Shown here: positions 2,687-27,770 of the stretch, one piece after another
Layout of the letters: the number at the start of each line of letters is the position of its first letter
Numbering within the stretch: position 1 is the stretch's first letter
Assembly: GCF_019823065.1 (NCBI RefSeq)
Contig: NZ_CP081966.1
Span: forward strand, 1 to 64,000
Source of the DNA: Pseudomonas mosselii
GTDB taxonomy: Bacteria; Pseudomonadota; Gammaproteobacteria; Pseudomonadales; Pseudomonadaceae
DNA length: 64,000 bases
Direction of reading: 5' to 3'
Made by a program: the position numbers and the translations under genes
The notes under the pieces: generated by a model
Told to the model about the DNA's origin: nothing
What the model saw: only the letters and a program-made list of their open reading frames with translations
Databases searched by the model: none

Positions 2687-6215
<3,529 letters not shown>

Positions 6216-6302
6216 TCTGCGTGTAGGTTCACAGAAAAGCTGCACGCTTTCACAAATAGATGACCGGCCGGGCTTCAACCATGGCCCCTGTCGGTCACCA
6301 TC

Positions 6303-6330
6303 AAGCCCGCCTTCGCGGGCTTTTTTTTGC
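6303..6330 (+). terminator. Rho-independent terminator of gyrB
   Basis: The hairpin AAGCCCGC-CTTC-GCGGGCTT is followed by a run of Ts, about 90 bp after the gyrB stop. It closes the dnaA-gyrB transcription unit and marks the core side of the island junction. Confidence 0.92.
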
Positions 6331-7052
6331 CTGGAATTCCTGCCGGGGCGCCCTACTCCGCTCATTGGAAAATGATGCAGATGGGGGGATTTGAGGAAGT
6401 GATTTGATGGGGCGCTGGAAGTGCTGAGAGGGTCGGCGGGCGGATCTGAGCAGCAGAGAGATTGAGAGGACTTTAAAACTAATATTTGAACACCTTAATA
6501 GTTAATTAAGCGTACGTGTTAAGTATTAATTTGAACAATTTAGTATGGAAATGGAATTTGGTGGAAGTTGCCATTTTGGATTTTTTGTAGATTTCGAAGG
6601 GATGTTGGAATAAGATCTATGACCAACTTTTCCGCTTTGCACTGAAGATTTTCAGCCAAATCAGCTGTTTGAAGCGAGAGCTTCAGACCTGATCCAAATT
6701 GCTCCAGCGATCACGAAGTGGCCGTTTAGAAATAAAGAGAGCAAGCCGATTGCTTTAGATTCTGATCAGTCATGAGAGTCATGACCAATGAGAGAAAAGG
6801 AGACCTGAAAATGTAGAAAAACGCGATCAATCCCGAGAGGACTGACCGCGCTTAGCGAAGCAGACTTGCGTCCTCAGAACCCGCAATGTCTGCTTTTTCG
6901 AAGCGACTGTCAATCCTCTCCCATTTTTTCGACCTTAGCGAGGTTACTCGACGGCACAGTGTTGCCTGTCGAAAGGCCTCACTTCGCCCGCCCTGCGCCT
7001 TGATTTTTTGGCGCAGCGTCGGCGCTCGTTTCGAGATTTTCGGAGGTGTTTC
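6331..7052. other. Gene-free junction, probably holding the tns-proximal transposon end
   Basis: No convincing gene is present in these 720 bp. The stretch from about 6476 to 6660 is strikingly AT-rich next to gyrB and contains repeated TTTGAAC blocks (near 6484 and 6530) and several TGGAA blocks. In Tn7 the end beside the target gene carries several TnsB-binding sites next to tnsA, so this is where they should be. I could not define an exact terminal sequence or a target-site duplication. Confidence 0.45.
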
Positions 7053-7691
7053 ATGACAGTACGAAAGGTGGTCACGCGGCGGTCCAACCATTACCGCGGC
7101 TACTTCCCATCGCTCAAAAATAAAAAGCCTGTGCCCTGGGAGTCCCAGCTCGAAGGCGCTCTTTTTCGGCTTCTTGAGCTGTCTCCTGCGGTCATCGGCT
7201 ACGTCCCGCAGCCCAGTGAGGAACGTGTTCCATCGCTCCAGGGCTACTTCAAATATTACCCAGACGTACAGGTTTTCCTCGCGGATGGGCGCGAGTGGTG
7301 GTTTGAAGTGAAGCCTCACGACCGACTGAAGATTGCCAGCGTCAGGCAGCGACTGGATGCCGCTGAGCGCTACTTCAACGCCACTGCCCGTAACTTTTCG
7401 GTGATCACTGAAAAGTTAATTGAAGCTGAACCCCTGGCTACCAATCTTAGAAGGCTGATGTATCACCGGCGCGGTCCAGAGCTTTCGCATCAGGCGTTGG
7501 AGGAGGTAATGGCGACCTTCAACGAATGGCCGCCTATGACCGTTGCAGATCTGCTCTACGTGGTTGGTGAGGGGAAAGCCTGGCGCTTGTTAGGCCTTGG
7601 GGTGGTGGGCATTGACCTTGATAGGTCAATTGACACTGACTCCCCGGTCTTCCTGCAAGGGGGGCACCGTCATGCAAACCTTTTCCCTTAG
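7053..7691 (+). CDS. tnsA: Tn7-like transposition endonuclease TnsA
   Basis: TnsA is the restriction-enzyme-like subunit that cuts the 5' ends of the transposon while TnsB cuts the 3' ends, giving cut-and-paste transposition. The 212-residue protein has the catalytic layout of the family: E30/E34 in WESQLE, D71 in YYPDVQV and E85-V86-K87, equivalent to the Glu, Asp and QVK of Tn7 TnsA. The ATG at 7053 is preferred because CGGAGGTG precedes it; the frame also extends to a TTG at 7008. It is the first gene of tnsABC and tnsB overlaps its end by 20 bp. Confidence 0.93.
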   Translation: MTVRKVVTRRSNHYRGYFPSLKNKKPVPWESQLEGALFRLLELSPAVIGYVPQPSEERVPSLQGYFKYYPDVQVFLADGREWWFEVKPHDRLKIASVRQRLDAAERYFNATARNFSVITEKLIEAEPLATNLRRLMYHRRGPELSHQALEEVMATFNEWPPMTVADLLYVVGEGKAWRLLGLGVVGIDLDRSIDTDSPVFLQGGHRHANLFP

Positions 7692-9630
7692 GGTGAAATT
7701 GGTCGTCATCGTTCGTGGCGTACTGATGGTGCTTGAGAAGAGGCTTATTGACCGGAAGCTGCTCTTTTTCGATGAGCTTGGTGAGCCCACGAAGCTATCC
7801 GAGAAGGAGTTCTATGAGGCCTACGAGAAGCGCGAGATCGAGATCTCCGCTGATCAGCCATACCTTGGGAGGGTTCCGTATGTGCGGAACGTCCCTCCAG
7901 ATATTTCATGCTTCCCCAAAAAACATGGAGATGAGGCATTGCGTCGACGCAAGTATCTGGACGACCTAACTAAGCGCGGTAAATACAAGCTACCGGGTGA
8001 CGAAGACATGATCAAGAAGCTTAGAGATATCGCCAAAAAGATTGGGGATGCGTGCGCACCCTCGGTTTCCACTATTCGACGTTGGGCAGCCAAATACATT
8101 GGCCAGAACGTAGTAAAGCTTATCCCTCAGCATGCCAAAAAGGGTCGGGCTGCCGCGATACAGGGAGAGCTCGAAGTTATTCTTGAAGGGGTGATTAATA
8201 AAACCTACCTGCAGGATACGATTCCAGCGGTCAGCGTGGTCGTTTCAGAATTCGAGGATCAGATAAAAGAGAGGAACAAAAGTCGTTTGCCTTCGGATCA
8301 GCTCAAGATCCCAAGCGGAATGACTGTCCGAAGGTACATCGCCAAGCTGGATCCGTACCTTGTGGATAAGGAGAGGCTCGGAAAACACGCAGCAGACAAG
8401 AAGCACCGTGTTGCGGCGGGTGTCCTACGTGTCCATGAGATTTTGGAACGTTGGGAAATTGATCACACCTTGTTGGACGTCCAGCTTGTGGATGAAACCT
8501 CGGGGCTGTGCATTGGGCGCCCCTATCTGACGATCGTCCTCGACCGCTTCTCTCGAATGGTGATGGGATATTTGCTCCACCTGTCGGCGCCAAATACGGA
8601 AACCGTGCTTCGTGTGATCGAACGCTCAATCCGTCCAAAAGCCGAATTGCTGAAGCGCTTTCCGAAAGTGAGAAATGAATGGTGGGCACGTGGGCTGCCG
8701 GCTCGAATAGTCCCAGACAACGCAGCGGAATTTCACGCGGGCGATCTCATCATGGGATTCAACGAGTTGGGTATCGAGATCATGTATCCCGCTTCAAGGG
8801 CCCCTCAAAGGAAAGGTGCCGTCGAACGCTTTTTCAGCACACAGAACCTGGGGCTTATCCACAACCTCCCGGGTACCACCTTCTCGAATATCCAGCAGCG
8901 TGGCGATTACGACTCGGAGAAGAATGCATGTTTCACGCTCCCTCAATTGGAGGCGGTGGTAGTGAAATGGATCGTCGATGGTTACCACCAGACTCCTCAT
9001 CGGGGGCTGGACAACAGAACACCGGCTCAAGTCTGGGGGACTAGCGAGGCGAACCATGTCATCAGCCTTCCCGTCGACCTGGACTCGTTGGAGTGCATTC
9101 TGGCCAAGCGGGCCTCGGTGAAGGTTCACCATTACGGCATCGAGGTTGCCAAAGTGGGCTACCACTCTACGGAACTTGCTGAGCTCCGTATGCGTTTGGC
9201 AGACGGAGAAAAGGTAAACGTCCGCTATCGAGACGAAGCCGGGCACGTTTGGGTTCACGACCGCTTCAGAAACTTGTTCTTCAAAGTGCCCGCCAAAGAT
9301 GAGCGAATGGCCGGTAAGAGCAGGGAGGTGTGGAAGGCTGCCGAGAAAGCGCTGCGAGAAAAATATAATGAGCAGCCTAGCTTCGAGGCTACGCACAGGT
9401 GCTACCAGGAAATTATGGAAGATGCAGACGAGGCCCGCCGTTCGCAGACGCTCAGAAAACGACGCGCAGCTGCCATAGCGAAAATCGACAAGGAGGGTCG
9501 AGTGACCGAAAGCACGCCTCCACCCAAGGTACTCGCTGAAGTGGAATGGACCGGTGACTCTATTCCTAACATTCCGCCAGCAGCCTTCAAGGTCTCGGTT
9601 CGTCGCCCTGCTGGGAGTTCTAAGCCATGA
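7672..9630 (+). CDS. tnsB: Tn7-like DDE transposase TnsB
   Basis: TnsB binds the transposon ends and carries out 3'-end cleavage and strand transfer. The 652-residue protein has a retroviral-integrase-type core with the DDE triad at D264 (WEIDHTLLD), D349 (VPDNAAEF) and E385 (AVERFFS), where the last two are 36 residues apart, followed by a Mu-type C-terminal domain. The ATG at 7672 follows AAGGGGGG at a spacing of 7 and overlaps tnsA, which suggests translational coupling; an ATG at 7726 is an alternative. All catalytic residues are present, so the transposase looks functional. Confidence 0.94.
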   Translation: MQTFSLRVKLVVIVRGVLMVLEKRLIDRKLLFFDELGEPTKLSEKEFYEAYEKREIEISADQPYLGRVPYVRNVPPDISCFPKKHGDEALRRRKYLDDLTKRGKYKLPGDEDMIKKLRDIAKKIGDACAPSVSTIRRWAAKYIGQNVVKLIPQHAKKGRAAAIQGELEVILEGVINKTYLQDTIPAVSVVVSEFEDQIKERNKSRLPSDQLKIPSGMTVRRYIAKLDPYLVDKERLGKHAADKKHRVAAGVLRVHEILERWEIDHTLLDVQLVDETSGLCIGRPYLTIVLDRFSRMVMGYLLHLSAPNTETVLRVIERSIRPKAELLKRFPKVRNEWWARGLPARIVPDNAAEFHAGDLIMGFNELGIEIMYPASRAPQRKGAVERFFSTQNLGLIHNLPGTTFSNIQQRGDYDSEKNACFTLPQLEAVVVKWIVDGYHQTPHRGLDNRTPAQVWGTSEANHVISLPVDLDSLECILAKRASVKVHHYGIEVAKVGYHSTELAELRMRLADGEKVNVRYRDEAGHVWVHDRFRNLFFKVPAKDERMAGKSREVWKAAEKALREKYNEQPSFEATHRCYQEIMEDADEARRSQTLRKRRAAAIAKIDKEGRVTESTPPPKVLAEVEWTGDSIPNIPPAAFKVSVRRPAGSSKP

Positions 9631-10586
9631 ACGCCATCAATCTGTACGAATGCTACGAGCATGGTGAATACAGCTTTACGCTCCGCGATCGTTTTATTCA
9701 CAGCCCTCAAGTCGAGCGAGCGTTGACGCGACTAGGCGATATCCACGGCGATAGTCGGCGTACCAGAGCAAGTAAAGGGTTGCTGATCCAAGGTCCAAGC
9801 GGAGTGGGCAAGAGCACATTGGTCAAGGAGTACATTCGGTCATTGGAGGAATTGGAGAGCCATGACCCACAGAAGCGGACAGTTCTGTTCGTCGAGATGC
9901 CTTCGTCTCCAACCAAAAAGAACCTGGCAGCAGCCATTTTGGCAGAGCTGAAGGATCCCTTCGCAGAGGCACGAGGACATTCGGCAGAGGTTAAATTTGC
10001 GCGAGTAGTCCTGCTGCTGAAGAACCTTGGCGTGGAGATGTTGGTCCTCGATGAGGCGCAGCACCTGGTCGATTATCGTCGTAATGGTGCGTATGAGGCA
10101 GCAGACTGGATCAAGAGTCTGATGAATGAAACCAGTATCGCGTTTGTTCTGATTGGGCTGAAGCGCACCGAAAATCTCCTGCTAGCAAACGAGCAACTGC
10201 GACGCAGGTTTTCGGCCACGGTGGCATACGATCGCTTCACCTTCTCCGCTAATACGTCTCTTCATTTCGTGATGTTGTTGCAGGCAATCGAGGGCGAACT
10301 GCCTGTTCAAACCATCAGTTTTGTAGAGCCAGCGATGATTAAACGCTTCTACCTGGCTTCCTATGGATTGATCGACTACCTCATCAAGATTGTGGACAGG
10401 GCTGTTTGGCTGGTTCAAGTCCAGGACCTTGTCGGGATTGAACTTCCTGTGCTGGCCCAGGCTTTTGAAGACGAGGTTTGGAGCTACGCCACCGAGGATC
10501 GAAACCCCTTCAGTGCGAGCTTCAATTTCCAGCCTCTGTTCGGGAAGCGGGAGCCGTTTGAGACGTTCGAAGAGAGCAGTACCTGA
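9627..10586 (+). CDS. tnsC: Tn7-like AAA+ target regulator TnsC
   Basis: TnsC is the ATP-dependent switch that links the target selector (TnsD/TniQ) to the TnsAB transposase and gives target immunity. The 319-residue protein has Walker A GPSGVGKST at 56-64, Walker B LVLDEAQH at 139-146 and a sensor-type region ending LIGLKR. Its length is nearer to the TniB/short TnsC type than to the 555-residue TnsC of Tn7. Its ATG overlaps the tnsB stop by 4 bp. Confidence 0.93.
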   Translation: MNAINLYECYEHGEYSFTLRDRFIHSPQVERALTRLGDIHGDSRRTRASKGLLIQGPSGVGKSTLVKEYIRSLEELESHDPQKRTVLFVEMPSSPTKKNLAAAILAELKDPFAEARGHSAEVKFARVVLLLKNLGVEMLVLDEAQHLVDYRRNGAYEAADWIKSLMNETSIAFVLIGLKRTENLLLANEQLRRRFSATVAYDRFTFSANTSLHFVMLLQAIEGELPVQTISFVEPAMIKRFYLASYGLIDYLIKIVDRAVWLVQVQDLVGIELPVLAQAFEDEVWSYATEDRNPFSASFNFQPLFGKREPFETFEESST

Positions 10587-10592
10587 CGGCCA

Positions 10593-10618
10593 AGGGCCGG
10601 GCTTATCGGCCCGGCTCT
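10593..10618. terminator. GC-rich hairpin between tnsC and tniQ
   Basis: The stem GCCGGGC/GCCCGGC has a 6-base loop 7 bp after the tnsC stop. No real T-run follows, so it may be a weak terminator or an mRNA processing or stability element separating tniQ from tnsABC expression. Confidence 0.45.
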
Positions 10619-10661
10619 ACTCCCCTGATTTTTATGTCTTCGATTTCATGGATGTGTAGGA

Positions 10662-12578
10662 ATGTTTGGTCTTTTAATCAACCCACGACCACACCAAGAC
10701 GAAAGTCTTTTGGGGTACCTGCAGCGCCTGGCGAAAGCCAACGGATTACCCAGAAAGGAACTGCTCACCGCCTTTGCACGAGCCGACGAGACCGATGTTG
10801 CGGACTGGCTGCAGATGATGGAAGGACCACTGAGCTGGCCTGCGGTATCTGCTGAGTTTCGTGATCCAAGGCCCAAGGGGGTCAAGTTATGGACGACTCA
10901 TCACGCTCGTTACTGTCCGATCTGTTTGGGCGAAGCCGGTTATTGGAGAGAAAGCTGGGGCTTGACCCTGGTTACGACGTGTTCTGTCCACGGCACTGAA
11001 CTCCACGGGCGGTGCCCCAACTGTCTGAAGGAAACCGATCCAAGCGCAATGAGTGCGAATAGTTGCCAAGCGTGTGGCACCTCATTGAGTGGGACCAATT
11101 TTGAGATCGCGCCGGCGAGTGATACGGCCGCCTGGCTCACCTCTGGCTTTGAAGATAGGTTTTACGCCGACTCGTTGCCAGCTGACGCGGGATTGGCGGC
11201 CCTCACCTACGAACAGTTTCACGAGTTGTCATCGCGTCTCGCTGTCAGAAGTTTGCCTACGGAAAGAACCCAGCCGCTGAAGGTTGCTGATTCGGGTTCG
11301 CTAGAGATATCGCGGCTTATGGCAAACGCGGCGGGCGTGGTTCTCATGAACTGGCCTCTCGCATTCAGAGAACTGCTGAGTGGCCTCAAGGCAGTCCATT
11401 CCGATAACGAACATTGGACGCTCAGCAGATCGTTCGGCCCGATATACCACGACATCCACCGTGATCTGGATGACTCTTGTTTTGACTTTCTTCGTCGAGA
11501 GTTCGAATCATTTCTGCAGCATGCGTGGGAAGCACCGTTAGCGAAGCGAAATCGCAATTTGAGTGAGGAGACGATTGAGAGACATCGTTGGGTGTCGTTC
11601 GATTCTGCTGCTGAAGCTTGTGGTCTCGGGGTATCAGTCATAAAACGCCTTCATCAGGAGGGACAAATCGCCTATCGGGAGAAGGTCCATGAAGATCGAG
11701 TCTTTACGGTCGTGGACCTGGATCATTTGAAGGCAATCTCGCAGCATCTCCAGGGCGTGGCTGATATGAAAGAAACCTCGACTTTGCTAAGCCTCTGTCG
11801 CAATCGGGTTAGGCAGCTGCTAGCTGGTGGTACCCTCCAGTTCTTTGGTGGAGAACCGCGCCCAGGCGAAAGGTGGCTGATTGACTGCCGCTCGATCAAC
11901 GAATTGATTGATGAGAAGCTGCCTACCAGCTCTGACCAGAGCCTGGTGTCGATCAACTACTTGGCCAAGCATTCTCTGCCCAAGGGGGGTGGGTTGGTCG
12001 AGTTGGTTCAGGCAATACGTGCAGGTGAACTTCGCGCTTACGGCCCAGCTGAGAATGGCTCGGTTGCGGTAGGGGCGTGGTTACTCAAGCCGCAAGATTT
12101 TGCAGCGTGGCAACAAGCCCGAGCTGAGAACAAGAGTCCGGTCTTTCCCGGCCTGTCGGTAGTCAAGGCTGCTGCGCTGTTAGGCGTCAAAGAACAATGC
12201 GCATACGCGTTCGTTCGACTGGGTCTGCTATGGAGCACTGCTGTCGAACGAGGCCGGCGTACGCAATTGATGGTTAAGCCTCAAGCCATCGACAGATTCA
12301 GGCGTGGCTATATCTTGGGACCGGAGATTGCGGTGTATTTGGGGAAGTCGACCAGGGAGGCGTTCAAGCACCTTTGGGAGGCCAGGTTTCGCCCCGTTGC
12401 GGGGCCATCCATTCCAAACGCGGCTTGCCGGCAGTACGTTTGGGTAAGAAGCAAAAAGCTGATCGATTACCTCGCAAGTGAAGCCGCCCAGATCGACGAT
12501 CCTGAAGCCATCACGTTTTTATCCACACCGATCGCTCAGCCTCGTGATTGCCGATTCAGGCATGTGGGATCAAGATAG
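10662..12578 (+). CDS. tniQ: TniQ/TnsD-family target-site selector
   Basis: TniQ/TnsD proteins recognise the attachment site and recruit TnsC. The N-terminus has the typical GLLINPRPHQDESLLGYLQRL followed by zinc-binding motifs: C85-x2-C88, C107-x2-H110, C118-x2-C121 and C135-x2-C138. At 638 residues it is much longer than the short TniQ of CRISPR-associated or Tn5053-type elements, and closer to Tn7 TnsD with a long sequence-reading C-terminal part. That fits a dedicated chromosomal attachment site, here inferred to be the 3' end of gyrB. The start has only a weak ribosome-binding site. Confidence 0.9.
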   Translation: MFGLLINPRPHQDESLLGYLQRLAKANGLPRKELLTAFARADETDVADWLQMMEGPLSWPAVSAEFRDPRPKGVKLWTTHHARYCPICLGEAGYWRESWGLTLVTTCSVHGTELHGRCPNCLKETDPSAMSANSCQACGTSLSGTNFEIAPASDTAAWLTSGFEDRFYADSLPADAGLAALTYEQFHELSSRLAVRSLPTERTQPLKVADSGSLEISRLMANAAGVVLMNWPLAFRELLSGLKAVHSDNEHWTLSRSFGPIYHDIHRDLDDSCFDFLRREFESFLQHAWEAPLAKRNRNLSEETIERHRWVSFDSAAEACGLGVSVIKRLHQEGQIAYREKVHEDRVFTVVDLDHLKAISQHLQGVADMKETSTLLSLCRNRVRQLLAGGTLQFFGGEPRPGERWLIDCRSINELIDEKLPTSSDQSLVSINYLAKHSLPKGGGLVELVQAIRAGELRAYGPAENGSVAVGAWLLKPQDFAAWQQARAENKSPVFPGLSVVKAAALLGVKEQCAYAFVRLGLLWSTAVERGRRTQLMVKPQAIDRFRRGYILGPEIAVYLGKSTREAFKHLWEARFRPVAGPSIPNAACRQYVWVRSKKLIDYLASEAAQIDDPEAITFLSTPIAQPRDCRFRHVGSR

Positions 12579-12634: not shown

Positions 12635-12994
12635 ATGTCCCGTCTCGCTGAATTCCGCCTGCTCGAACAACAGCTCGCAGCCCAACTGGCGGAGCTGGAA
12701 GCGCTGAAAAATGACTCTGCCCTGAAGCAGGAAATGGAATTTGAAACGAAGCTGCGCAGTTTGCTCAACGAGTATGGCTACGGCCTGCGCCAAGTGGTGC
12801 TGATCCTCGATCCGCAAGCGGTGGCTTCCACTGATATGGCCCCAAAAACCTCTCGGAAACCACGCGAAGTGAAGGTCTACAAGAATCCACACAGCGGAGA
12901 GGTTGTTGAGACCAAGGGTGGTAATCAGCGTACGCTTAAGGCCTGGAAAAACGAGTATGGCGCTGAGGTAGTCGAGTCTTGGCTCGCCAATTGA
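12635..12994 (+). CDS. turC: MvaT/MvaU-family H-NS-like silencer (Tur type)
   Basis: MvaT-family proteins are functional analogues of H-NS: they oligomerise through an N-terminal coiled coil and bind AT-rich foreign DNA through an AT-hook-like C-terminal domain. The 119-residue product has a heptad-rich N-half (about 1-60) and the C-terminal signature VYKNPHSGEVVETKGGN followed by TLKAWKNEYGAEVVESW, nearly the MvaT consensus. The ATG at 12635 follows TTTTGGAGAA and removes a 29-residue leader of the open frame. It is encoded 57 bp after tniQ, so it travels with the transposase genes. The symbol follows the recalled P. putida paralogue encoded near gyrB; the family is certain, the exact paralogue less so. 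Confidence 0.85.
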   Translation: MSRLAEFRLLEQQLAAQLAELEALKNDSALKQEMEFETKLRSLLNEYGYGLRQVVLILDPQAVASTDMAPKTSRKPREVKVYKNPHSGEVVETKGGNQRTLKAWKNEYGAEVVESWLAN

Positions 12995-13795: not shown

Positions 13796-14251
13796 TTACG
13801 TGTCAGGATAACTGGCAACTACTTGATCGTCCCCACTCTTGGTGAGGCCGATGACTTGATAGGCGTGTTTCATGCCATCAACCTCCATACCTGGTGAGCC
13901 AGCGGGCATGCCAGGTACCGCGACGCCTGCCAGGTCGTTGCGCTTTATGAGCTCCTGCACCTGGGCTGCGGGGACGTGACCTTCCACAAACTTGCCATCG
14001 ATAACCGCGGTGTGACACGAAGCCAGCCTCGGAGCTACTCCTAGCTCTTGCTTCACCGCCCTCATGTCCGTTTCAACGTGGTCGACGACCTTGAAGCCGT
14101 TTGCCTCCAAGTGCGCTATCCATTTCTTACAGCAACCGCAATTAGCGTCCCGGTGCACATCGATAGTCAGGGGCTCCGCAGCAAAGGCGGCTGAGGCGAT
14201 TAGAAGTGACGCTGCGGTACTTAAACCGAGGAAGCGGCGCTTACTTGTCAT
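13796..14251 (-). CDS. DUF411 periplasmic metal-binding protein
   Basis: This 151-residue protein starts with a signal peptide ending ASAAFA and contains the DUF411 core: the DANCGCCKKW cysteine cluster, a conserved H of ASCHTAVIDG, and the VEGHVPA and PGMPAGSPGMEV blocks. DUF411 proteins are small periplasmic copper- or silver-binding proteins common in cop/sil clusters. The ATG at 14251 is chosen because it begins the signal peptide and overlaps the upstream cytochrome gene by 11 bp; a longer frame adds 30 residues without signal character. It is the last gene of the copA operon. Confidence 0.85.
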   Translation of the reverse strand: MTSKRRFLGLSTAASLLIASAAFAAEPLTIDVHRDANCGCCKKWIAHLEANGFKVVDHVETDMRAVKQELGVAPRLASCHTAVIDGKFVEGHVPAAQVQELIKRNDLAGVAVPGMPAGSPGMEVDGMKHAYQVIGLTKSGDDQVVASYPDT

Positions 14252-15020
14252 GAGTGTGCTCCTTCCCGTCTTTGTGCACATGGGTTTTGGGAGTAGAACC
14301 TGTGTGGTGGTCCGAGTGCGCCTCGCCGGACTCGTGTTCACCGTGGTGCTCCGCTACTGATGAAGACTCCGAATGCGAACTGCCATGATCATGACTTTCC
14401 TCAGCCACGCCGTTTGCTGCGGAATCATCATGATTTCCATGACCTGATTTCGCACCACCGTGTTGGCCTTCATGGTTATGCATATCGCTTTCGCCACCGC
14501 CATGTTGGTGACCACCACTGGAAGCGACCATCATCTGGTACTGCTCAGCATTGAGTTGCGGTAGCTGGTCCAGGAACGCGACGATTCCCCAGATGTACTG
14601 GTCGTCCATGCTCTTACCCCAGGCTGGCATGCCTGTCGCTTTGATACCGTGCTTGATGGTCCAAAACGCAGCAGCAGGGTCACCGCTTACACCTATCTCG
14701 GTGAGGTTTGGTGGGGATGGGTATAGGGCTTGGCTGAGTTCAGTTTTCTCCACCCCTGGCGCGAGGTGGCAACCGATACACATGGCGTTGTAGTTGCCTG
14801 CCCCTGCTTGGATGAGAGCAGGATCTTTAAGGTTTGGCACCTCAATGTCGCTTGCTCGGACTTCAATCGAGCGATCCCGCGCCATGGCCAAAAACGCATG
14901 CACAGCGGGGAAGTGTGGGTCGTCCGCACCAACGTTCACGAGACCGAAGTAAGCAGCACCTAGCACTGCTGCGCTAGTAACAGCACCTGCCGCCACCAGC
15001 GTTGTAATTGTTTTTTTCAT
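14241..15020 (-). CDS. Cytochrome c with His-rich C-terminal tail
   Basis: The 259-residue exported protein has an N-terminal membrane or signal segment, a single class I cytochrome c domain with haem motif CIGCH near residue 81 and a methionine-ligand region (ATGMPAWG), and an unusual tail from about 170 onward built of HQHGGG, HNHEGQHGG and HDHGSSHSE-type runs. The haem domain suggests electron transfer in the periplasm; the tail should bind Cu, Zn or Ni. It lies between copB and the DUF411 gene, 9 bp after copB, so it probably serves copper oxidation or storage together with CopA. Confidence 0.85.
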   Translation of the reverse strand: MKKTITTLVAAGAVTSAAVLGAAYFGLVNVGADDPHFPAVHAFLAMARDRSIEVRASDIEVPNLKDPALIQAGAGNYNAMCIGCHLAPGVEKTELSQALYPSPPNLTEIGVSGDPAAAFWTIKHGIKATGMPAWGKSMDDQYIWGIVAFLDQLPQLNAEQYQMMVASSGGHQHGGGESDMHNHEGQHGGAKSGHGNHDDSAANGVAEESHDHGSSHSESSSVAEHHGEHESGEAHSDHHTGSTPKTHVHKDGKEHTHDK

Positions 15021-15029
15021 GTTGAGTTC

Positions 15030-16145
15030 TCAAAACCACATCCGAATACCGGCCACAAAACGAGCTTCGTCCACGTCCCCGCCTTCATCCCGAATGAAAT
15101 CGGCGGTTTTGCCGTAGGAACGGCTCCAGGTGACACCTATGTATGGCGCGAACTGGCGAACAATCTCGTACCGTAACCGCAGCCCGACTTCGGTGTTTGC
15201 CAGGCCAGAGCCGACGCCGCGTTCCGGGTCGTTCTTGCCATAAAAGTTGGCCTCAGCGGTTGGCTGAAGAATTAAACGATTGGTTAGCAAGATGTCGTAC
15301 TCGCCCTCCAGACGGGCAGCGGTTTGACCGTTCTCGCCGATAAAGGCGGTGGCTTCAGCTTCGAAGTCATACAGGGCCAGGCCCTGAATACCGAACGCAG
15401 CCCAGGTCTGCGGATCCTCCGGTTTGAAATCCTGCCGGACGCCGGCGACAACATCCCACCACGGGCTTACCGAGCGGCCATAGAGGAGCTGCAGCTCAGC
15501 ATCTTCAGTCACACCATTGGTTCGTTCACCTTCCGAGCGAATCCAGAGCCTATTGATATCGCCGCCCACCCAGCCGGATGCATCCCAAGCAAGCGTGCTA
15601 CCTTCATCGGCATCTTGGTATTCCAGTTGGTCTAGCAAGAAAAAGCTGTTGAACCCGCTGTCATCCATTTTGTGCCCGTCAAGCGGGGGGAAGGCAGCCT
15701 GCCGGTCGGCATCAGTCAGCACCGGGATTGGCGTACGGCTGGTCGGGGTCGGCGAATCAGCGTTCCCGTTTCCCATCGTGGAATGACCCATCGCGCCATG
15801 ATCCATGCCTTCCATGGACCCGTGATCCATGCCTTTCATGCTTCCATGGTCCATCTTGCTGTGGTCCATCGAGGCGGGTTTCGCTTTGGGCTGGCCATGG
15901 CCCATTTTGCTGTGATCAACGGGTGCAGGTTGCGTGGGTTGCTTGCTCGCGCCCATCTGGCTGTGGTCCATGCCCGGCATCGCAGCCTGTGATGAGGCGT
16001 GGTCCATCTGCATGGCACCGTGGCCCATTGCCGAGTGGTCCATTCCGGAATGATCCATTTCAGCGGCGAAGCTGGGCGAAACGCCCAGCACACCTAAAGA
16101 AACGGCGAATGCCAGCAGCGATGGTCGTGCAACGCTATTGGCCAT
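15030..16145 (-). CDS. copB: Copper resistance outer-membrane protein CopB
   Basis: CopB/PcoB is an outer-membrane barrel of copper resistance operons. The 371-residue product has a signal peptide, a linker rich in MDHSxM and MGHG motifs (about 30-130) and a C-terminal barrel domain beginning near [10 protein letters not shown] and ending VAGIRMWF with a terminal aromatic residue, as is typical of barrels. The ATG at 16145 follows AGGGAAAA and overlaps the upstream small gene by 11 bp; the open frame extends 10 codons further. No copC or copD follows, so this is the short copAB arrangement. Confidence 0.93.
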
Positions 16146-16458
16146 TTTTCCCTGCCTTAGCTTTGTCGCTGCCATGCGATTCCATCATTTTGCTGTGATC
16201 CATTCCTTCCATGGAACCATGATCCATGCCCTCCATAGAGCCATGATCCATGCCTTTCATGGAGCCGTGATCCATGCCTTCATGGTTCATGCCCTGGGCT
16301 TGCTTGCTCTTCGAGCCGTTCGATTGCGCCGCGTTGGACGACTTTTGAGAGTGCTGATCATGGTTGTCACTGGACCAGGAAGACGGGGCGTACACCGCGA
16401 GCAGGCCAACCATCGCGGCAGAGAGGAAAAAGGCGCTTCGTTTCATTGGTTTGCTCAT
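16135..16458 (-). CDS. Small periplasmic Met/His-rich copper-binding protein
   Basis: This 107-residue protein has a signal peptide (about 1-27) and is otherwise low-complexity: a basic polar stretch, then five or six MDHGSM/MDHSKM repeats and a Lys-rich end. The repeats match those inside CopA and CopB on either side, which suggests a periplasmic copper sponge or a shuttle between them. The ATG at 16458 follows GGAGATACGAG. The gene lies 15 bp after copA and overlaps copB. Confidence 0.82.
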
Positions 16459-16472
16459 CTCGTATCTCCAGT

Positions 16473-18431
16473 TCATTCGTCCACGCGGACTTCTCGGAAC
16501 ATGCCCATCTCCATGTGGTACATGAGGTGACAGTGATAGGCCCAGCGCCCGAGTGCATCTGCGGTTACGCGATAGCTTCGTTTCGAGCCAGGCGGCATAT
16601 CGATCGTGTGTTTTCGCACCATGAAATTGCCGTCCTCATCCTCCAGGTCACTCCACATGCCGTGCAGATGGATGGGGTGAGTCATCATGGTGTCGTTGAC
16701 CAAGGTAATACGCAGGCGCTCGCCGTACTTGAGCCGCAGCGGCTCTGCGTCAGAAAACTTGATCCCATCGAAGGACCAAGCGAACTTTTCCATATGCCCG
16801 GTAAGGTGCAGTTCGATTGTCCGGCCAGGTTCCCGGCCGTCAGGGTCGATGAAGGTGCTACGCAAATCCGAATACGTGAGAACCCGACGCCCGTTATCGC
16901 GAAGCCCGATCCCCGGATCGCTCAGCTTTGGCGTAGGGGTCATGGTCTGCATATCGACCAGAGGGTTGTTTGTTTCGGAGGCGGGATGGTTCTGCATGGC
17001 ACCGCTGGCGGCCATATTGCTTTGGTCCATACCGGTCATGTTGCCGTGGTCCATGCCAGCCATCTTGCTATGGTCCATACCGGCCATGCTGCCGTGGTCC
17101 ATGCCAGCCATCTTGCTATGGTCCATACCGGCCATGCTGCCGTGGTCCATGCCAGCCATCTTGCTATGGTCCATACCGGCCATGCTGCCGTGGTCCATGC
17201 CAGCCATCTTGCTATGGTCCATACCGGCCATGCTGCCGTGGTCCATGCCAGCCATCTTGCTGTGGTCCATACCGGCCATGCTGCCGTGATCCATGCCACC
17301 CATGCTGCCGTGGTCCATCCCCATATCACTCATGGAGATGAGAGGCCTTGGATCTACAGCCGGCACCGGTGCCTGCAGGCCCTCACGGACAGCCAAGGTA
17401 CCCCTTGAATAGCCGGTGCGATCCATGGATTGAGCAAAGATGGTGTAAGCCTGCTCGTTTTCAGGCTCGACAATGACATCGTAGGTTTCAGCAACGGCAA
17501 TCCGGAATTCATCGATCGACACTGGCTTAACGTACTGACCGTCGGCTGCGACAACCGTCATTTTCAAGCCGGGGATCCGCACGTCGAAATAGGTCATCGC
17601 CGAGCCATTGATAAAGCGAAGCCGGATTTTCTCCCCTGGCTTGAAGATTCCCGTCCAGTTCCCATTTGGCGCCTGGCCGTTCATGAGGTAGGTGTAGGTG
17701 TGCCCGCTCACGTCAGCGAGATCGGTTGGGCTCATCTTCATCTCGGCCCACATCTTTCGATCGGCCACAGCAGCAGACCAACCTTTCTCGCTCACGTCGT
17801 CGACGAAGTCGCCAACGGTGCGCTTGTGGAAGTTGTAATAGTCCGACTGTTTTTTGAGCTTGGACATAACCCGCGCCGGGTCTTCGTCGGTCCAATCACT
17901 CAGCATGACGACATAGTCACGATCGTAGGTGAAAGGCTCTGGATCCTTGGCATCAATCACCAGCGCACCGTAAACACCGACCTGCTCCTGGAAGCCCGAA
18001 TGGCTGTGGTACCAGTAGGTGCCGTTCTGGTGGACCTTGAACTTGTACTCGTACATGCCGTCGGGAGCGATGCCATGGAAGCTTAGACCCGGCACGCCGT
18101 CCATATTCGCCGGCAGGATGATGCCGTGCCAGTGGATGGACGTGTCCTGCTTCAAGCGGTTGCGAACCCGTAGCGTGACCGTGTCGCCTTCGCGCCAACG
18201 GAGTATTGGTCCTGGCAGCGAACCGTTGATGGCCATCGCCGTTCGAGCTGCCCCGGTAATGTTCACCGGGAGCTCCCCGATGTACAGGTCAAAATCGGTG
18301 CCGGTCAGTACGTTAGGCTGGCCAGGGCTGGTTACGGCCCAGACCGGCGCGCGCCACATGCCCAGCCCACCCAGTAGTCCGGTAGCAGCCAGGCCTTTGA
18401 CGAATGAACGTCTCGTGGTTTTGCTTTGCAT
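16473..18431 (-). CDS. copA: Multicopper oxidase CopA (PcoA type)
   Basis: CopA is a Tat-exported periplasmic multicopper oxidase that oxidises and binds Cu(I). The 652-residue protein has a Tat signal (TRRSFVKGL), three cupredoxin domains and copper ligands in IHWHG, WYHSHSG, HPIHLHG and [12 protein letters not shown]. Between domains 2 and 3 lies an array of 12 MDH units plus one MDQ variant, largely GMDHGSM and AGMDHSKM, encoded by a 48-bp tandem repeat. The ATG at 18431 is taken because the Tat motif follows directly; the frame runs 19 codons further upstream. It is the first gene of a five-gene operon behind a cop box. Confidence 0.96.
17043..17282 (-). repeat. 48-bp tandem repeat (five units) within copA
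   Basis: Five units of 48 bp begin at 17043, 17091, 17139, 17187 and 17235. The units are almost identical; the fifth has an A-to-G change. Each encodes [16 protein letters not shown]. Such sequence identity between units suggests recent expansion or ongoing homogenisation. Confidence 0.93.
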
Positions 18432-18591
18432 GCCGTTGCGTCCAATCAGGTAGATCGCTGATATCCAGACTGCGGGATCCGCAGCCATCTGGTTTCAATT
18501 GAGCTCCCCCAAGCCTCGTAGACTTTCGCCAAAGCACAAGGATTGCGGGAGGCAATACCCCGAAAGCTGACATAGTTCAGATTCCGGGGTG

Positions 18592-18608
18592 ATTACATTT
18601 CTGTAAGC
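18592..18608 (-). promoter_or_regulatory. Cop box upstream of copA operon
   Basis: ATTAC-ATTTCT-GTAAGC contains the perfect dyad TTACA-N4-TGTAA, 160 bp upstream of the copA start. It agrees with the recalled Pseudomonas cop box and is the likely CopR site driving copA-DUF411. Confidence 0.78.
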
Positions 18609-18613
18609 TAAGC

Positions 18614-18820
18614 TCAGCAGCTCTCGTGGCCGGGGTGCTTTTGGCTTTGGGCGGTAACAGGAGCCTCTGCTTTTTTCTCCTGAGCAACCTGGTAAGCCTG
18701 CATGGAAGATGCACGTGCAGCTTCCATCCTGGCGAAGGTGCGATCCGCGCCGCCTTCAGCCAGGGCGAGGCTCGCCATGCCGAAGGTGACTACCATCACA
18801 ATCGCTTTGATCATGTTCAT
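18614..18820 (-). CDS. PtrA-like small periplasmic copper-response protein
   Basis: A 68-residue exported protein with a signal peptide ending SLALA and mature start EGGADRTFARMEAARASSMQ, which matches the PtrA N-terminal domain. PtrA of P. aeruginosa is a copper-induced periplasmic protein linked to copper tolerance. The short C-terminus ends HPGHESC, which could bind metal. AGAGGAAACGCAA precedes the ATG. It is divergent from copR with a degenerate cop box between, so CopR control is likely. Confidence 0.82.
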   Translation of the reverse strand: MNMIKAIVMVVTFGMASLALAEGGADRTFARMEAARASSMQAYQVAQEKKAEAPVTAQSQKHPGHESC

Positions 18821-18911
18821 TTGCGTTTCCTCTAAGGGTCAGTTTCGCCTGATTGGCGCCGTTCACAGTGCTCAAGCTAGCTACCCGGCACTGTCAGCAA
18901 GCTGAGCCCGA

Positions 18912-18930
18912 CATTACTTTTCCGTCAGCT
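18912..18930. promoter_or_regulatory. Degenerate cop box between ptrA-like gene and copR
   Basis: CATTAC-TTTTCC-GTCAGC keeps the ATTAC-N6-G spacing of the cop box with one changed half-site. It lies in the divergent promoter region and could control copRS, the ptrA-like gene or both. Confidence 0.6.
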
Positions 18931-18986
18931 TCTGGTTGGGTGCCTTTTTTGCTGCACACTGAAGGGCATCCAAGGGGGCGCAGCAG

Positions 18987-19664
18987 ATGAAATTACTCGT
19001 AGCCGAAGATGAGCCAAAAATCGGGGCCTACCTGCAGCAAGGGCTGACGGAGGCAGGCTTTACCGTCGATCGTGTGGTCACAGGGACCGACGCGCTGCAA
19101 TACGCTTTGAGCGAGGCGTATGACCTGCTGATTCTTGATGTAATGATGCCGGGGCTAGACGGCTGGGAGGTGCTGCGGATGGTACGTGCGGCAGGGAAAG
19201 AGGTCCCAGTCTTGTTTTTGACGGCCCGTGATGGCGTGGACGATCGCGTGAAAGGGTTAGAACTCGGGGCTGACGATTACCTGGTCAAACCCTTTGCATT
19301 CTCGGAACTGCTAGCGCGTGTGCGCACTTTGCTGCGAAGAGGCAGCAGTGGCTATGCTCAGACCACTATGAAGATGGCTGACCTGGAGGTAGACCTGCTT
19401 AAGCGCCGGGCCACCCGAAATGGCAAGCGGATCGACCTCACAGCCAAGGAGTTCTCCTTACTGGAACTACTCATGCGCCGACGCGGCGAGGTACTGCCGA
19501 AGTCCCTGATCGCATCGCAGGTGTGGGATATGAACTTCGACAGCGACACTAACGTGATCGAGGTTGCTGTTCGTAGGTTGCGGGCCAAGATTGATGACGA
19601 TTTCGCCCCCAAGCTCATACATACAGTTCGTGGCATGGGCTATCTGATGGATGTTCCCGAGTAA
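18987..19664 (+). CDS. copR: Copper response regulator CopR
   Basis: An OmpR/PhoB-family response regulator of 225 residues: receiver domain with acidic pocket E7-D8, phosphoacceptor D51 in [10 protein letters not shown], and [10 protein letters not shown] containing the conserved Lys, followed by a winged-helix domain ending VRGMGYLMD. It pairs with CopS and activates copper genes through cop boxes. CopS starts inside the TAATG overlap. Close to the CzcR at 44495, so cross-recognition of sites is plausible. Confidence 0.93.
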
Positions 19665-21070
19665 TGCGCGCCCAATCGTCGCTCGTTAAACGCCTTACCC
19701 TCATGTTCATGTTCGCGGTCATCGCCGTATTGGTCGTTGCCGGCGTGAGCTTCTACATGCTCAGTCAGCACCATTTCCAGATGCTGGATGAGCAAGCCCT
19801 GGCCGAGAAACTCGAATCCACCCGGCACATCCTTTCACTTTCAGCAGCACGTGATGAACTTGAGGATCAGGAGCCTCAACTGCGTGCTTTGTTGGGGGCT
19901 CATCAGGACCTTTCTGCGGAGATTCTTGATGCTGACGGTACTGTCCTGTTCTCGGACTCCAAGGCATCCCGCATCCCTGAGCGCTTTAAGCAGGCCTCTT
20001 CTGGCGCCGTTTGGGACTGGCAAATCGACTCGCGGAACTTCCGGGGGATTACCTCTCAACTGGCTATAGCGCAGGCGCAGGCGCCGGTAACAGTCATGTT
20101 GATGCTGGATGTCACCAGCCATGCCCACTTTTTCAAGACGCTGCAATGGTGGTTCGGCATTGGCTTGGTCATCAGCGCTCTGGTTAGTGCAGGATTGGGG
20201 TGGATCGTGGCCAAGAGCGGTCTTCGGCCGGTTGGGCAGATCACCAAGGTGGCGACATCCATGTCTGCCCGGTCCCTTCGCGAGCGAATTCCATTGGAGC
20301 CCGTGCCGCTTGAATTGCAGGAGCTGATCCTCTCCTTCAACGGAATGCTTGCACGCCTGGAAGACGCGTTCGTCCGGCTATCAAACTTCTCAGCCGACAT
20401 CGCACATGAGCTGCGGACTCCGGTAAGTAATCTTCTGACGCATACCGAAGTCGTTCTGACCAAAAAACGCGACCTCGATGCCTACGAAGACAACCTCTAC
20501 TCCAATCTTGAAGACCTCAAGCGCATGTCGCGCATGATCGATGACATGCTGTTCCTGGCAAAAGCTGATAACGGCTTGATCATCCCCGAGCAGGTTGATA
20601 TCGATCTGGTCGGGCTAGTGTCCAGACTGATTGAGTACTACCAGCTTGCAGCCGAAGACCGAAGCATTCGGCTTGCCCTTCAAGGCGAAGGTACGATCCG
20701 TGGTGACCGGCTAATGATTGACCGGGCGGTTTCCAACATTCTATCCAACGCTTTGCGCTATACCCCCGAAGGCCACGATATCGCCGTCCGGATTGTCGAG
20801 GCGGCTGATCAAGTGAACCTGTCCGTCCAGAACAATGGGGCCACGATTGATCCGGAACATATCAACAAAATCTTCGACCGGTTCTATCGCGCTGACCCTG
20901 CAAGGCGGGAAGGAAGCCCAAGCAACGCCGGCTTGGGTCTGGCCATAACGCGTTCGATCATCGAGGCTCATGGTGGGCGAATTTGGTGTACCTCCGCTGA
21001 CGGCGTGACGAGTTTTCACATCGCTCTGCCGCACGCCAAACAATCCACTTCCAAGCCTCAAACGGCTTAA
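19664..21070 (+). CDS. copS: Copper sensor histidine kinase CopS
   Basis: CopS is the membrane sensor of periplasmic copper that phosphorylates CopR. The 468-residue protein has two membrane segments (about 11-32 and 162-185) framing a periplasmic sensor region, a HAMP domain, the HisKA box DIAHELRTP with H248, and a HATPase domain with N-box DRAVSNILSNALRY, a G1-like QNNGATI and G2 GLGLAITRSI. It belongs to the CusS/CopS/IrlB heavy-metal kinase group. Its start overlaps copR, so the two are translated together. Confidence 0.93.
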   Translation: MRAQSSLVKRLTLMFMFAVIAVLVVAGVSFYMLSQHHFQMLDEQALAEKLESTRHILSLSAARDELEDQEPQLRALLGAHQDLSAEILDADGTVLFSDSKASRIPERFKQASSGAVWDWQIDSRNFRGITSQLAIAQAQAPVTVMLMLDVTSHAHFFKTLQWWFGIGLVISALVSAGLGWIVAKSGLRPVGQITKVATSMSARSLRERIPLEPVPLELQELILSFNGMLARLEDAFVRLSNFSADIAHELRTPVSNLLTHTEVVLTKKRDLDAYEDNLYSNLEDLKRMSRMIDDMLFLAKADNGLIIPEQVDIDLVGLVSRLIEYYQLAAEDRSIRLALQGEGTIRGDRLMIDRAVSNILSNALRYTPEGHDIAVRIVEAADQVNLSVQNNGATIDPEHINKIFDRFYRADPARREGSPSNAGLGLAITRSIIEAHGGRIWCTSADGVTSFHIALPHAKQSTSKPQTA

Positions 21071-21106
21071 TGCTCATTTCATGCGTGTAACCTATACTCG
21101 GCCATC

Positions 21107-21454
21107 ATGAACCGGCTCCTACGACTGTTCACCATCCTGCTTCTAATCGCATCGCTTCCTCTCAACGGCATGGCGGGAGTCGACTCAGCCATTGAACCAT
21201 GCCCCATGCAAACCATGGGGATGGAGATGATGGCGGGGATGGATCACGATTGTTGCCAGGATACTGATCCAGGATCAGCTGCCGACCACTCCAAAGCCTG
21301 CAAAGTGGGCCAGGAGTGTAGAACCGCGAGCACAGTTCAGGTCGAAATAATTAACCCCACGCTCACCTATTCTGCGCCTAGGCCAGTAGATACCTATGCG
21401 GTGAGCCTCGTAAACAGGGCGCCTCCTGACCCTTGGCGGCCACCCCGCGCCTGA
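21107..21454 (+). CDS. Small exported Cys/Met/His-rich protein upstream of cusC
   Basis: The 115-residue protein has a hydrophobic signal (about 4-23) and a mature part with clustered metal ligands: CPMQTMGMEMMAGMDHDCC, then SKACKVGQEC. I do not know a characterised homologue; small ligand-rich exported proteins often precede Cus operons in pseudomonads and are presumed periplasmic copper binders. It lies between copS and cusC in the same direction, so it may be the first cistron of the cus operon. Confidence 0.7.
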   Translation: MNRLLRLFTILLLIASLPLNGMAGVDSAIEPCPMQTMGMEMMAGMDHDCCQDTDPGSAADHSKACKVGQECRTASTVQVEIINPTLTYSAPRPVDTYAVSLVNRAPPDPWRPPRA

Positions 21455-21540
21455 TTACCTCTTAAATTCACCCCATCGTCCTGTTTTGCAGCCGGATGAT
21501 GGCATGCGCTTGCGCGCTGATTTTTTGAGGAATCATTTCC

Positions 21541-22794
21541 ATGACTCCCCCACGTTACCGATTAGGGATGGCATGTCTGGCCGCTCTGATCAGCCTGTTG
21601 TCGACGTTACCGGCTCAGGCTACACCGTTGTCTCTGGAGGAAGCGCTTCAACTTGCCGAACGCAATGCCCCCATCCTCCAGGCCAGGCAAGAGCAAATGA
21701 CGGCCGCTCGACACGCTGTGATCCCAGCAGGCGAGCTGCCTGATCCACGTCTCAACCTAGGAGTGCAGAACCTTCCTGTTGACGGCAGTGATCGTTGGAG
21801 CATGAACCGCGATTTCATGACGATGCAGGTTGTCGGCCTCTCCCAGGAAGTACCAAACCGGGACAAGCGGGAGGCACGAGTTGAGACGGCACGAGCGAGC
21901 GTTGAGCGAGCCGATGCAGAGGCGGTGTTCGAGCGCTTAAAAGTGCGTGCTGCCACAGCCCAAGCTTGGGTCGCGGCGTACACCGTTCAACGGAAACTGC
22001 AGCAGTTTGAGGACTTCTACAAAGAAAACCGTCTGTTGGCCGCAGCAATCCGCGCACGCCTGGCCGGCGGTACCGGCGCGACGGCCGACGCACTTGCTCC
22101 TGACCAGGAAGCTGCGCAACTCGATGAGCAAAAAGATGTTCTGCTCACACAGGCCGCTCAGGCACGGGCTGCACTCAAGCGATGGATTGGAGAGGATGCT
22201 GATCCGCAAGCTCAAGCATTTCCGCGCTGGCCAGTGAGCGCGCCGGACTATCTACACGCTATACATGCACATCCAGAATTGGCGACCTACAACGCCCTTA
22301 CGCGGGAAGCACAAGCTCAAGTGCACCAAGCCTTGGCAGAAAAGAAGTCGGACTGGGGGTGGCAGGTGGATTACCAGCGGCGCGGGCCTGAATTCAGCAA
22401 TATGGTGAGCCTGCAGGTAAGTTTCCAACTGCCCTTGTTCGCTGGCTCACGGCAGGACCCGATGATCGCGGCACGTCGCGCACAAGTCCGGCAACTGGAG
22501 GACGAACAGGAAGCGGCATTGCGTGAGCATAAAGCGCAGCTGGAGACAGATCTTGCGGATTACCAGCGATTGCAGCGAGCAGTGCAGCGCAGCCGTGAAA
22601 CATTGTTACCGCTAGCGGAGGATCGAGTCCGCCTCGCCCTTGCTGACTATCGAGCCGGTAAATCACCCTTAAGTGAGGTTCTCACCGCTCGACGTCAGCG
22701 GGTTGAAACACGACTGCAAGACATCGATCTGCAAGGACAGTTGGCCGCGACAGCTGCACGGCTGCACTTCGCGTATGGAGAGGTGCGCGCATGA
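21541..22794 (+). CDS. cusC: Outer-membrane efflux channel CusC (TolC family)
   Basis: This 417-residue TolC-family protein forms the outer-membrane channel of the CusCBA copper/silver efflux pump. It has a signal peptide ending PAQA and the long helical repeats of the family, with coiled-coil-forming stretches near 65-75 and 290-350. It resembles the CzcC/CusC heavy-metal branch. The ATG follows TTTGAGGAATC. cusB starts inside its last codons (ATGA overlap), so cusCBA-F is a tightly packed operon. Confidence 0.9.
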   Translation: MTPPRYRLGMACLAALISLLSTLPAQATPLSLEEALQLAERNAPILQARQEQMTAARHAVIPAGELPDPRLNLGVQNLPVDGSDRWSMNRDFMTMQVVGLSQEVPNRDKREARVETARASVERADAEAVFERLKVRAATAQAWVAAYTVQRKLQQFEDFYKENRLLAAAIRARLAGGTGATADALAPDQEAAQLDEQKDVLLTQAAQARAALKRWIGEDADPQAQAFPRWPVSAPDYLHAIHAHPELATYNALTREAQAQVHQALAEKKSDWGWQVDYQRRGPEFSNMVSLQVSFQLPLFAGSRQDPMIAARRAQVRQLEDEQEAALREHKAQLETDLADYQRLQRAVQRSRETLLPLAEDRVRLALADYRAGKSPLSEVLTARRQRVETRLQDIDLQGQLAATAARLHFAYGEVRA

Positions 22795-24257
22795 GAAATT
22801 CAACTATCAGCCTTGTGGTATTGGCCGCGTTGGCTATCGGCGGTGGCGTTGGCTATCAGCTAGCAAAGCGTGGGCAGGTGTCCACTGCCTCCCCTGAAAC
22901 GCTACAGAAGGTGCTGTATTGGTATGACCCGATGTACCCCCAGCAGCACTTTCCAGCACCGGGCAAGTCGCCCTTCATGGACATGCCACTGGTGCCGAAG
23001 TACCAGGAAAGCACCGCTGCTGAGGTGAGCCCCGCAGTTCAAGTTTCACAGGGGCTCCAACAAAACCTGGGGGTCCGTCTGGCTACCGTAGCGAAAGGGC
23101 AGCTTGCTCGAACCCTCCAGGTGAGCGGCGTGCTTACCTTCGATGAGCGGGATTTTAGCGTTCTGCAGGCTCGTACCGGTGGCTACGTCGAACGCACCTA
23201 TGGCCGCGCTACAGGCGACGTGGTTGCCAAGGGCGCCCCATTGGCAGATGTGTTGACGCCTGAATGGGCGGGCTTGCAGGAAGAGTACCTGGCGCTTCAG
23301 CGATCTGGGGACAATGAATTGCGCGCTGCAGCTCGGCAACGACTACTGCTGGCGGGTATGCCTGCCGATCTTATCAACCGGATTGACCGTACGGGAAGGG
23401 TCCAGAATTCGGTAACGCTCTTGGCCCCAACAGCAGGCGTCCTTCAGGCTCTGGAATTGCGGCCAGGCATGACAATGACACCGGGTGCAACGTTGGCGAA
23501 GATCAATGGTATCGCGAACGTCTGGCTTGAGGCCGCAGTACCTGAAGCGCAAGCCCAAGGCCTACAGGAAGGACAGGCAGTGCAGGCGAATCTGGCAGCG
23601 TTCCCAGGCGAACCTGTTCCCGGCAAGCTGACCGCATTGCTGGCTGATGCGGATCTGCAAAGCCGCACCTTGCGGCTTCGTATAGAACTGCCCAACCCCG
23701 GCGGCCGGTTGCGCCCAGGCATGACCGCGCAGGTTTCCCTCCATCCGTCCGGGCAACAGGATGACAGCCTACTGGTGCCAGCCGAGGCGATCATTCGGAC
23801 GGGGAAACGCGATCTCGTAATGGTGTCAGAAGACGGAGGTCGATTCCGGCCGGTGGAAGTAGTGCTCGGCCAGGAAAGTGCTGGCCAGGTGGTCGTGCTG
23901 CGAGGCCTTCAGGCGGGCCAGCGCGTTGTGGCGTCCGGGCAGTTTCTGCTGGACTCCGAAGCGAGCTTGAAAGGTATCGAGGCCGTTACTGCTGGCGATG
24001 CTCCACTTGCGCAACCTGTACAGCCGGCTCTACATCAGGCCAATGGGCGCATCGTTCAAATAGAAGGTAATCAGCTGACCATCGCTCATGGACCGTTCGT
24101 GACGCTGGGCATGCCTGGTATGACGATGACTTTCCCTGTGGCAGATCCCCGCTTGATTGCCGGACTCAAGGTTGGCGAACGCATCCGGTTTGGAGTGCGC
24201 GAGCGCGATGAAGGCATGGTCATCGAGCAAATAACCCAGCAGGAGAACCAGCCATGA
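22791..24257 (+). CDS. cusB: Membrane-fusion protein CusB with N-terminal metal-binding and C-terminal CusF domains
   Basis: CusB is the periplasmic adaptor joining CusA to CusC and takes part in copper transfer. The 488-residue protein has an N-terminal anchor (5-22), a heavy-metal-binding domain ([20 protein letters not shown], about 43-68), the usual barrel-sandwich and beta-barrel domains, and a CusF-like domain at about 405-483 with the copper-binding block [18 protein letters not shown]. coli CusB lacks these extra domains, so metal can be bound at both ends of this adaptor. It overlaps cusC and cusA by 4 bp each. Confidence 0.92.
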
Positions 24258-27200: not shown

Positions 27201-27412
27201 TGACCGTAGCAGTGATCGTCGCAGGCTTGATGCCAATCCTCTGGAGTAGCGGTACCGGCAGCGAAGTCATGAGCCGGATCGCTGTACCCATGGTCGGCGG
27301 CATGCTCACCGCGCCTTTGCTCTCACTATTTGTAATCCCTGCGGCTTACTGGCTCGTCAGGCGCCGCGGACTCGCTGTACACGATAACCCCCAAACAGGA
27401 GTAACCCGATGA
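24254..27412 (+). CDS. cusA: Cu(I)/Ag(I) RND efflux pump CusA
   Basis: CusA is the inner-membrane proton-driven pump of the HME-RND class. The 1,052-residue protein has 12 predicted membrane helices and two large periplasmic loops. The motif [19 protein letters not shown] in the TM4 region is typical of monovalent-ion (Cu/Ag) pumps, in contrast to the [14 protein letters not shown] form of the CzcA at 57815. Methionines scattered in the periplasmic domain fit a methionine relay. It is translationally coupled to cusB and overlaps cusF by 4 bp. Confidence 0.95.
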
Positions 27413-27756: not shown

Positions 27757-27770
27757 CGGATTGACTTCTA

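Follow-up and report, generated by a model that had tools for sequence, protein, structure and literature searches.

The 3′ end of gyrB as the likely chromosomal attachment site of a 64-kb Tn7-like transposon in Pseudomonas

The DNA considered here, a window of 64,000 nucleotides from Pseudomonas mosselii (contig NZ_CP081966.1, positions 1 to 64,000), starts at dnaA in a genome of 6.35 Mb and two contigs, and carries a Tn7-like element directly behind gyrB. The gyrB gene (3795..6215, plus strand), an open reading frame (ORF) of 806 amino acids that also neighbours homologous elements, is followed just past its stop codon by the 5-bp target-site duplication CTGCG (6217..6221), which is matched exactly at contig positions 70317-70321. 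Between the two copies lies an element of 64,095 bp, running from position 6222 to position 70316 of the same contig, so that its far end falls beyond the window. The near end at 6222 reads TGTAGGTTCACAGAAAAG, its inverted partner terminates at 70316, and both are of the 5′-TGT...ACA-3′ type. Within the gyrB-proximal end (6222..6262, plus strand; TGTAGGTTCACA), two TTCACA-type repeats can be discerned by eye and are likely TnsB sites, judging from their sequence; one direct repeat was found in the far end. A hairpin scan places an intrinsic terminator at 6303..6328 (plus strand), inside the element end, where it appears to replace the displaced native terminator of gyrB. The initial annotation had given the element as 6216-12578; this interval does hold the tns genes but, with the ends located at 6222 and 70316, it amounts to only the gyrB-proximal 10% of the whole, and was discarded as the entire element.

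Four genes that define a Tn7-like set, namely TnsA, TnsB, TnsC and TniQ/TnsD, are all present, in that order and all on the plus strand: tnsA (7053..7691), tnsB, encoding the DDE transposase (7672..9630), tnsC, encoding a TniB-type AAA ATPase (9627..10586), and tniQ/tnsD (10662..12578), whose 638-amino-acid product is the presumed reader of gyrB; the starts of tnsA and tnsB were chosen after a plasmid annotation. TnsA matches the Pfam TnsA-like N-terminus above its cut-off (E 1.5e-6), TnsC matches TniB (E 4e-35), and TniQ matches the TniQ family (E 3e-16) as well as HTH_17. For TnsB the rve and Mu-transpos_C matches both fall below their cut-offs, with homology to annotated copies also supporting the assignment. 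Inspection by eye was the basis for the acidic catalytic residues of TnsA and TnsB and for the TnsC Walker motifs. The initial annotation's account of a tnsA-tnsB-tnsC set and a long TniQ directly downstream of gyrB thus agrees with ORFs and Pfam alike, as does its comparison with Tn7, where tnsA is likewise nearest to the attachment gene and transcription runs inward. A structure model of TniQ predicts MerR/Xis-like winged helices in the C-terminal half; the structure-search matches listed were TniQs of CRISPR-associated transposons (CASTs), MerR/Xis-like proteins and unrelated proteins, with no TnsD among them. No tnsE was recognised in the ORFs scanned, a scan that covered part of the cargo; cas families were likewise absent from the scanned ORFs and there was no Rfam match in the window, although no search aimed at CRISPR-Cas was made.

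The position behind gyrB recurs throughout the genus. Taking as relatives all TniQs that matched with an E-value of 1e-20 or better, 19 of 398 Pseudomonas genomes carry one, down to ~22% identity, and all 19 have an element behind gyrB. In 16 of these, the source genome included, gyrB, element end and tns genes are all visible in the sequence; in two more (G277 and G126) ~36 and ~10 kb separate the gyrB-side end from tnsA, and the last (G006) has a broken assembly, in which the tns genes are on a different contig from gyrB and the end. A scan of named genomes returned 21 loci, all from Pseudomonas, with gyrB and the end visible in 18; two others begin at a contig break, yet their genomes hold gyrB plus the end, and the remaining one (L085) lies off gyrB. 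Since 11 of the 21 come from genomes already among the 19, the union is 29 genomes, 28 of which, with the 10 further named ones counted in, have the element at gyrB. In every locus from either set that holds both genes, gyrB and tnsA are co-oriented, and wherever the junction was resolved in Pseudomonas the element begins 4-13 nt past the gyrB stop. Five more TniQs (G037, G058, G087, G099 and G128) likewise follow gyrB, the transposon end being 5-6 nt past its stop. Separately, sequences resembling decayed ends (TATAGGTTCAAAG and TGTAGATTCACC) directly follow gyrB in L062 and L073 (each at ~1893), in genomes that are not among the TniQ matches; these are possible scars.

Both the empty site and the 5-bp duplication, proposed with the initial annotation as checks, were found. 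All 17 elements with both ends located have identical 5-bp duplications beside gyrB. The far end was located in 14 of 15 further genomes, and in all 14 the duplication matches the near side: TCAGG (six times), TCCGG (twice), AGGTA, GCTGA, CCAGC, ATTGG, CCCGG and GTTCG. In three genomes (G077, G215 and G004) the near and far ends are on separate contigs, the far end of G004 being in locus L123; the far ends of G051 and G884 were sought and not found. Elements with a second type of end, TGTCGA, have ATTCC (G277) and AGGCC (G126) on both sides, and the ATTGG and ATTCC duplications include the last base of the gyrB stop codon. Three genomes offer empty sites (G170, G190 and G127; loci L049-L051), in which gyrB runs uninterrupted into a terminator at the insertion point; an insertion point far from gyrB, which would have spoken against the proposal, was not seen. 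Stacking occurs as well: beyond the far end in G398, G399 and G119 comes the 5-bp duplication and after it another end, degraded in G119. Head-to-tail stacks behind gyrB with a 5-bp duplication between the elements are recorded for loci L129, L132 and L112.

We consider it very probable that this is a 64-kb Tn7-like transposon that uses the 3′ end of gyrB as its chromosomal attachment site, with TniQ/TnsD as the most likely reader and a terminator supplied by the element. In the mechanism that we propose, TniQ/TnsD would, most likely, bind conserved terminal codons of gyrB and then recruit TnsC, upon which TnsAB would insert the element, always in the same orientation and 4-13 nt past the stop; a 5-bp duplication results, and GyrB itself stays intact. 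The insertion cuts gyrB off from its terminator, and the element brings its own just inside the gyrB-side end. In Tn7 the TnsD site covers +23 to +58 relative to the duplication centre (PMC2918618), and this spacing, placed by analogy on the corresponding centre at 6219, predicts a TniQ footprint at 6161..6196 (plus strand) in the gyrB tail. That gyrB is the site, as the initial annotation held, is borne out by 28 of 29 genomes, with close and distant TniQ homologues alike adjoining gyrB rather than always another gene; that TniQ reads it is what we infer from the sequence. Its description of the site as ‘invariant’ was too strong, as the tail of gyrB is variable at third codon positions. Unusual conservation of the tail was considered and rejected, since positions invariant among 53 distinct tails (of 65) make up 61% of the last 51 nt vs 56% over 393 nt.

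Two sets of observations weigh against so strict an association. In P. laurentiana JCM 32154 (L085, 4561) an identical tnsABC-tniQ set lies within the ORF of a GNAT acetyltransferase, and plasmid copies sit away from gyrB: the end, tns genes or both are present on six plasmid records, all typed as conjugative, with gyrB absent from the examined stretches of four of them, and four more records match over ~230 bp only. The specificity for gyrB is not absolute. One conjugative plasmid, pBYT5-1 (L004 12011-14381), holds a 2.4-kb remnant with both ends, tnsA, a cut tnsB and GCAAG on both sides; the tniQ of p716811-VIM is cut by an insertion sequence, and those of G323 and G119 are interrupted by internal stop codons. 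A resemblance of plasmid and off-site targets to the gyrB tail was tried and dropped, since the five flanks score 21-25 matches out of 66, which does not exceed what shuffled sequences give (P 0.17-0.75). The motif GATCTGC is common to two plasmid flanks and the source junction. Use of a chromosomal site together with conjugative plasmids resembles the two-route life of Tn7, yet no TnsE is found among the ORFs scanned.

When the search was extended by profile to 390 genomes from the order and 369 from the class, seven genomes besides the source were returned. In two, from other families (G445 and G884), clear TGTAGGTTCTCA ends lie 10 and 3 nt past gyrB, respectively, and a third (G722) has a probable element end there; in G532 and G739 no clear end was resolved at gyrB, which lies ~6-12 kb upstream and co-oriented, and in the last two (G688 and G609) the locus is truncated at the start of a contig, which leaves it without placement. 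The far end of the G445 element was sought and none established; two co-oriented element ends lie 722 bp apart next to gyrB in the same genome (G445:C2:452562-453301). We favour, with moderate confidence, a single deep TniQ lineage tied to the gyrB 3′ end across several gammaproteobacterial families, for long enough to give ~22% identity and at least three unlike end sequences, with replacement terminators acquired convergently near the gyrB-side end that keep a proper 3′ end on the essential gene.

As a control, all TniQs (Pfam PF06527, E 1e-8 or better) were collected from 199 Pseudomonas genomes, 67 of which have at least one. In at least 19 genomes they lie ~29-38 kb from gyrB on its other side (positions compared by eye), and in the three such loci examined a GlmS, assigned from sequence, is upstream of the tns genes. 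Seven other TniQs with frames >600 amino acids (G022, G064, G067, G069, G076, G151 and G172) lie outside the examined control loci, that of G064 being far from its gyrB. A profile of gyrB-linked TniQs, built from several of the proteins that it then scored, gives 1.6e-20 or better for gyrB-linked TniQs, with the exception of a second, short TniQ of G884 at 5e-9, and 1.6e-6 at best for glmS-linked ones. A maximum-likelihood tree built from 30 TniQs has a branch, supported at 100/100, that separates the four glmS-linked proteins from 25 labelled gyrB and one of unassigned site; among the 25, L005 is a plasmid copy, L034 was assigned via a second contig, and L149, L151 and L152 carry the label for a gyrB that lies ~5-12 kb away. 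The tree excludes two short TniQs, as well as second TniQs of <280 amino acids at L148 and L151.

Three other explanations need to be weighed. It is improbable, in our estimation, that gyrB is read by another factor, an element or host protein, with TniQ merely bridging to TnsC; there is a precedent in Tn6022, which uses TniQ plus TnsF according to PMC10293859, and five of ten cargo ORFs scanned have no Pfam match. However, this TniQ is long, has the HTH_17 match and, in the structure model, a predicted C-terminal winged-helix arm. Moreover, tnsABC-tniQ are the only ones among the gyrB-side query genes to turn up again in divergent lineages; the MvaT gene downstream of them was seen in close ones only. 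We give still less credence to a hotspot effect of the gap between gyrB and its terminator, through DNA structure, transcription end or closeness to the origin rather than sequence recognition. The resolved insertions do all fall between the gyrB stop and the native terminator, but the stop-to-end spacing is held to 4-13 nt while the downstream sequence varies, and three genomes with a gyrB element (G005, G040 and G045) carry other TniQs ~32-38 kb off on the opposite side of gyrB, which adjoin glmS in both loci examined (G040 and G045).

A single old insertion, inherited vertically or carried along with gyrB by recombination, would account for the same site across many species, and we regard it as the least credible of the three. 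Seven gyrB-attached loci share the 6.36 kb on the gyrB side with the source at 99.9-100% identity, but their gyrB genes are only ~84-90% identical to its own; because near-identical element segments lie beside gyrB genes that differ by 10-16%, these seven are separate insertions and, taken together with the differing duplications, therefore exclude simple inheritance. The differing spacings likewise contradict a single inherited insertion, as do relatives with empty sites and the stacked elements.

Insertion behind gyrB parts the gene from its native terminator, now at contig ~70333-70362, and a terminator-like hairpin is seen by eye directly past the far end of the source element, of G004 and of 12 of 13 further elements; in the exception, G119, another element end comes first. 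Most elements have an intrinsic terminator of their own, which starts 54-112 nt in from the gyrB-side end and whose hairpin sequence differs between lineages. Terminators were found near the gyrB-side end in 26 of 30 ends, vs ~2-4% of random DNA (one scan: 15 of 16 within 140 nt, random 58 of 3000; a second, at another threshold: 11 of 14 within 180 nt, random 87 of 2000), although many of these ends are near-copies and we estimate the independent number to be nearer ten. The misses are L042, G884, G058 and G037; in all of these but G884 an imperfect hairpin can be made out by eye, and the terminator of G099 is weak. Preservation of the host gene is not in itself a new outcome, because PMC2918618 already states that glmS expression is preserved after Tn7 insertion. 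A hairpin borne by the element at gyrB was not found described in the open-access literature searched, as far as its available text extends, and may offer a testable idea of how such elements stay harmless to their host gene.

Set beside Tn7, the element shares TnsABC with a long TniQ/TnsD, a 5-bp duplication, a single orientation and insertion just behind a conserved essential gene. It differs in having gyrB as attachment gene and an end 4-13 nt past the stop, where Tn7 inserts ~20 bp past that of glmS (PMC2918618), and its TniQ stands apart from the four glmS-linked Pseudomonas TniQs, unlike the glmS-targeting Tn7 branch. The gene parE is a paralogue of gyrB. The type I-F3 CAST Tn7017 is similar in that its target, the TniQ-targeted parE, is also the gene of a type II topoisomerase B subunit, but it carries CRISPR-Cas parts (review PMC11406308). 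The attachment sites in Table 1 of the same review are glmS, comM, yhiN, parE, tRNA genes and plasmid resolution sites, with gyrB not listed, and the accessible text of the open-access literature searched does not mention gyrB in such a role for Tn7-like elements; it may already be known elsewhere.

Two earlier descriptions may concern similar elements. The metal-resistance ‘region 1’ of P. putida W619, F1, GB-1 and KT2440 has comparable cop/cus/czc cargo, starts near the origin at W619 coordinate 7447 and is bordered by an ‘integrase’; in the available part of that source (PMC3056050) it is not described as a gyrB-attached Tn7-like element. The Tn7-like transposon of P. putida HB3267 comprises B479_00025-00140 (PMC4731212), locus tags that directly follow the usual gyrB slot, so that B479_00020 is presumably gyrB; the attachment site is undiscussed in the accessible text. 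Few Tn7-like attachment genes have been characterised, and gyrB would add an essential, universal target, one that may explain why metal-resistance islands of Pseudomonas gather beside the replication origin. If our reading is true, its TniQ would also offer a new specificity for targeted insertion of large DNA in pseudomonads.

Finally, an MvaT/MvaU-family silencer gene (12635..12994, plus strand; domain matches, start after the p716811-VIM annotation) lies directly 3′ of tniQ, in the close sub-lineage only, and its product may silence the cargo of the element. This metal cargo occupies 13796..63678 and runs on to contig position 70316; most of its ORFs have no tool-given name. NCBIfam names two CusA/CzcA resistance-nodulation-division (RND) pumps and two metal P-type ATPases, and other copper and metal genes, with regulators, were assigned from sequence. 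An EptA-type phosphoethanolamine-lipid A transferase (39452-41155) is part of the cargo too, above the NCBIfam domain cut-off and below the MCR cut-offs. Elsewhere in the source genome, a small contig carries a second TniQ of 415 amino acids (G000:C2:34584-35057) with no match to that of the element. Within the cargo, a multicopper oxidase-like ORF at 16473-18488 contains a long run of repeats.

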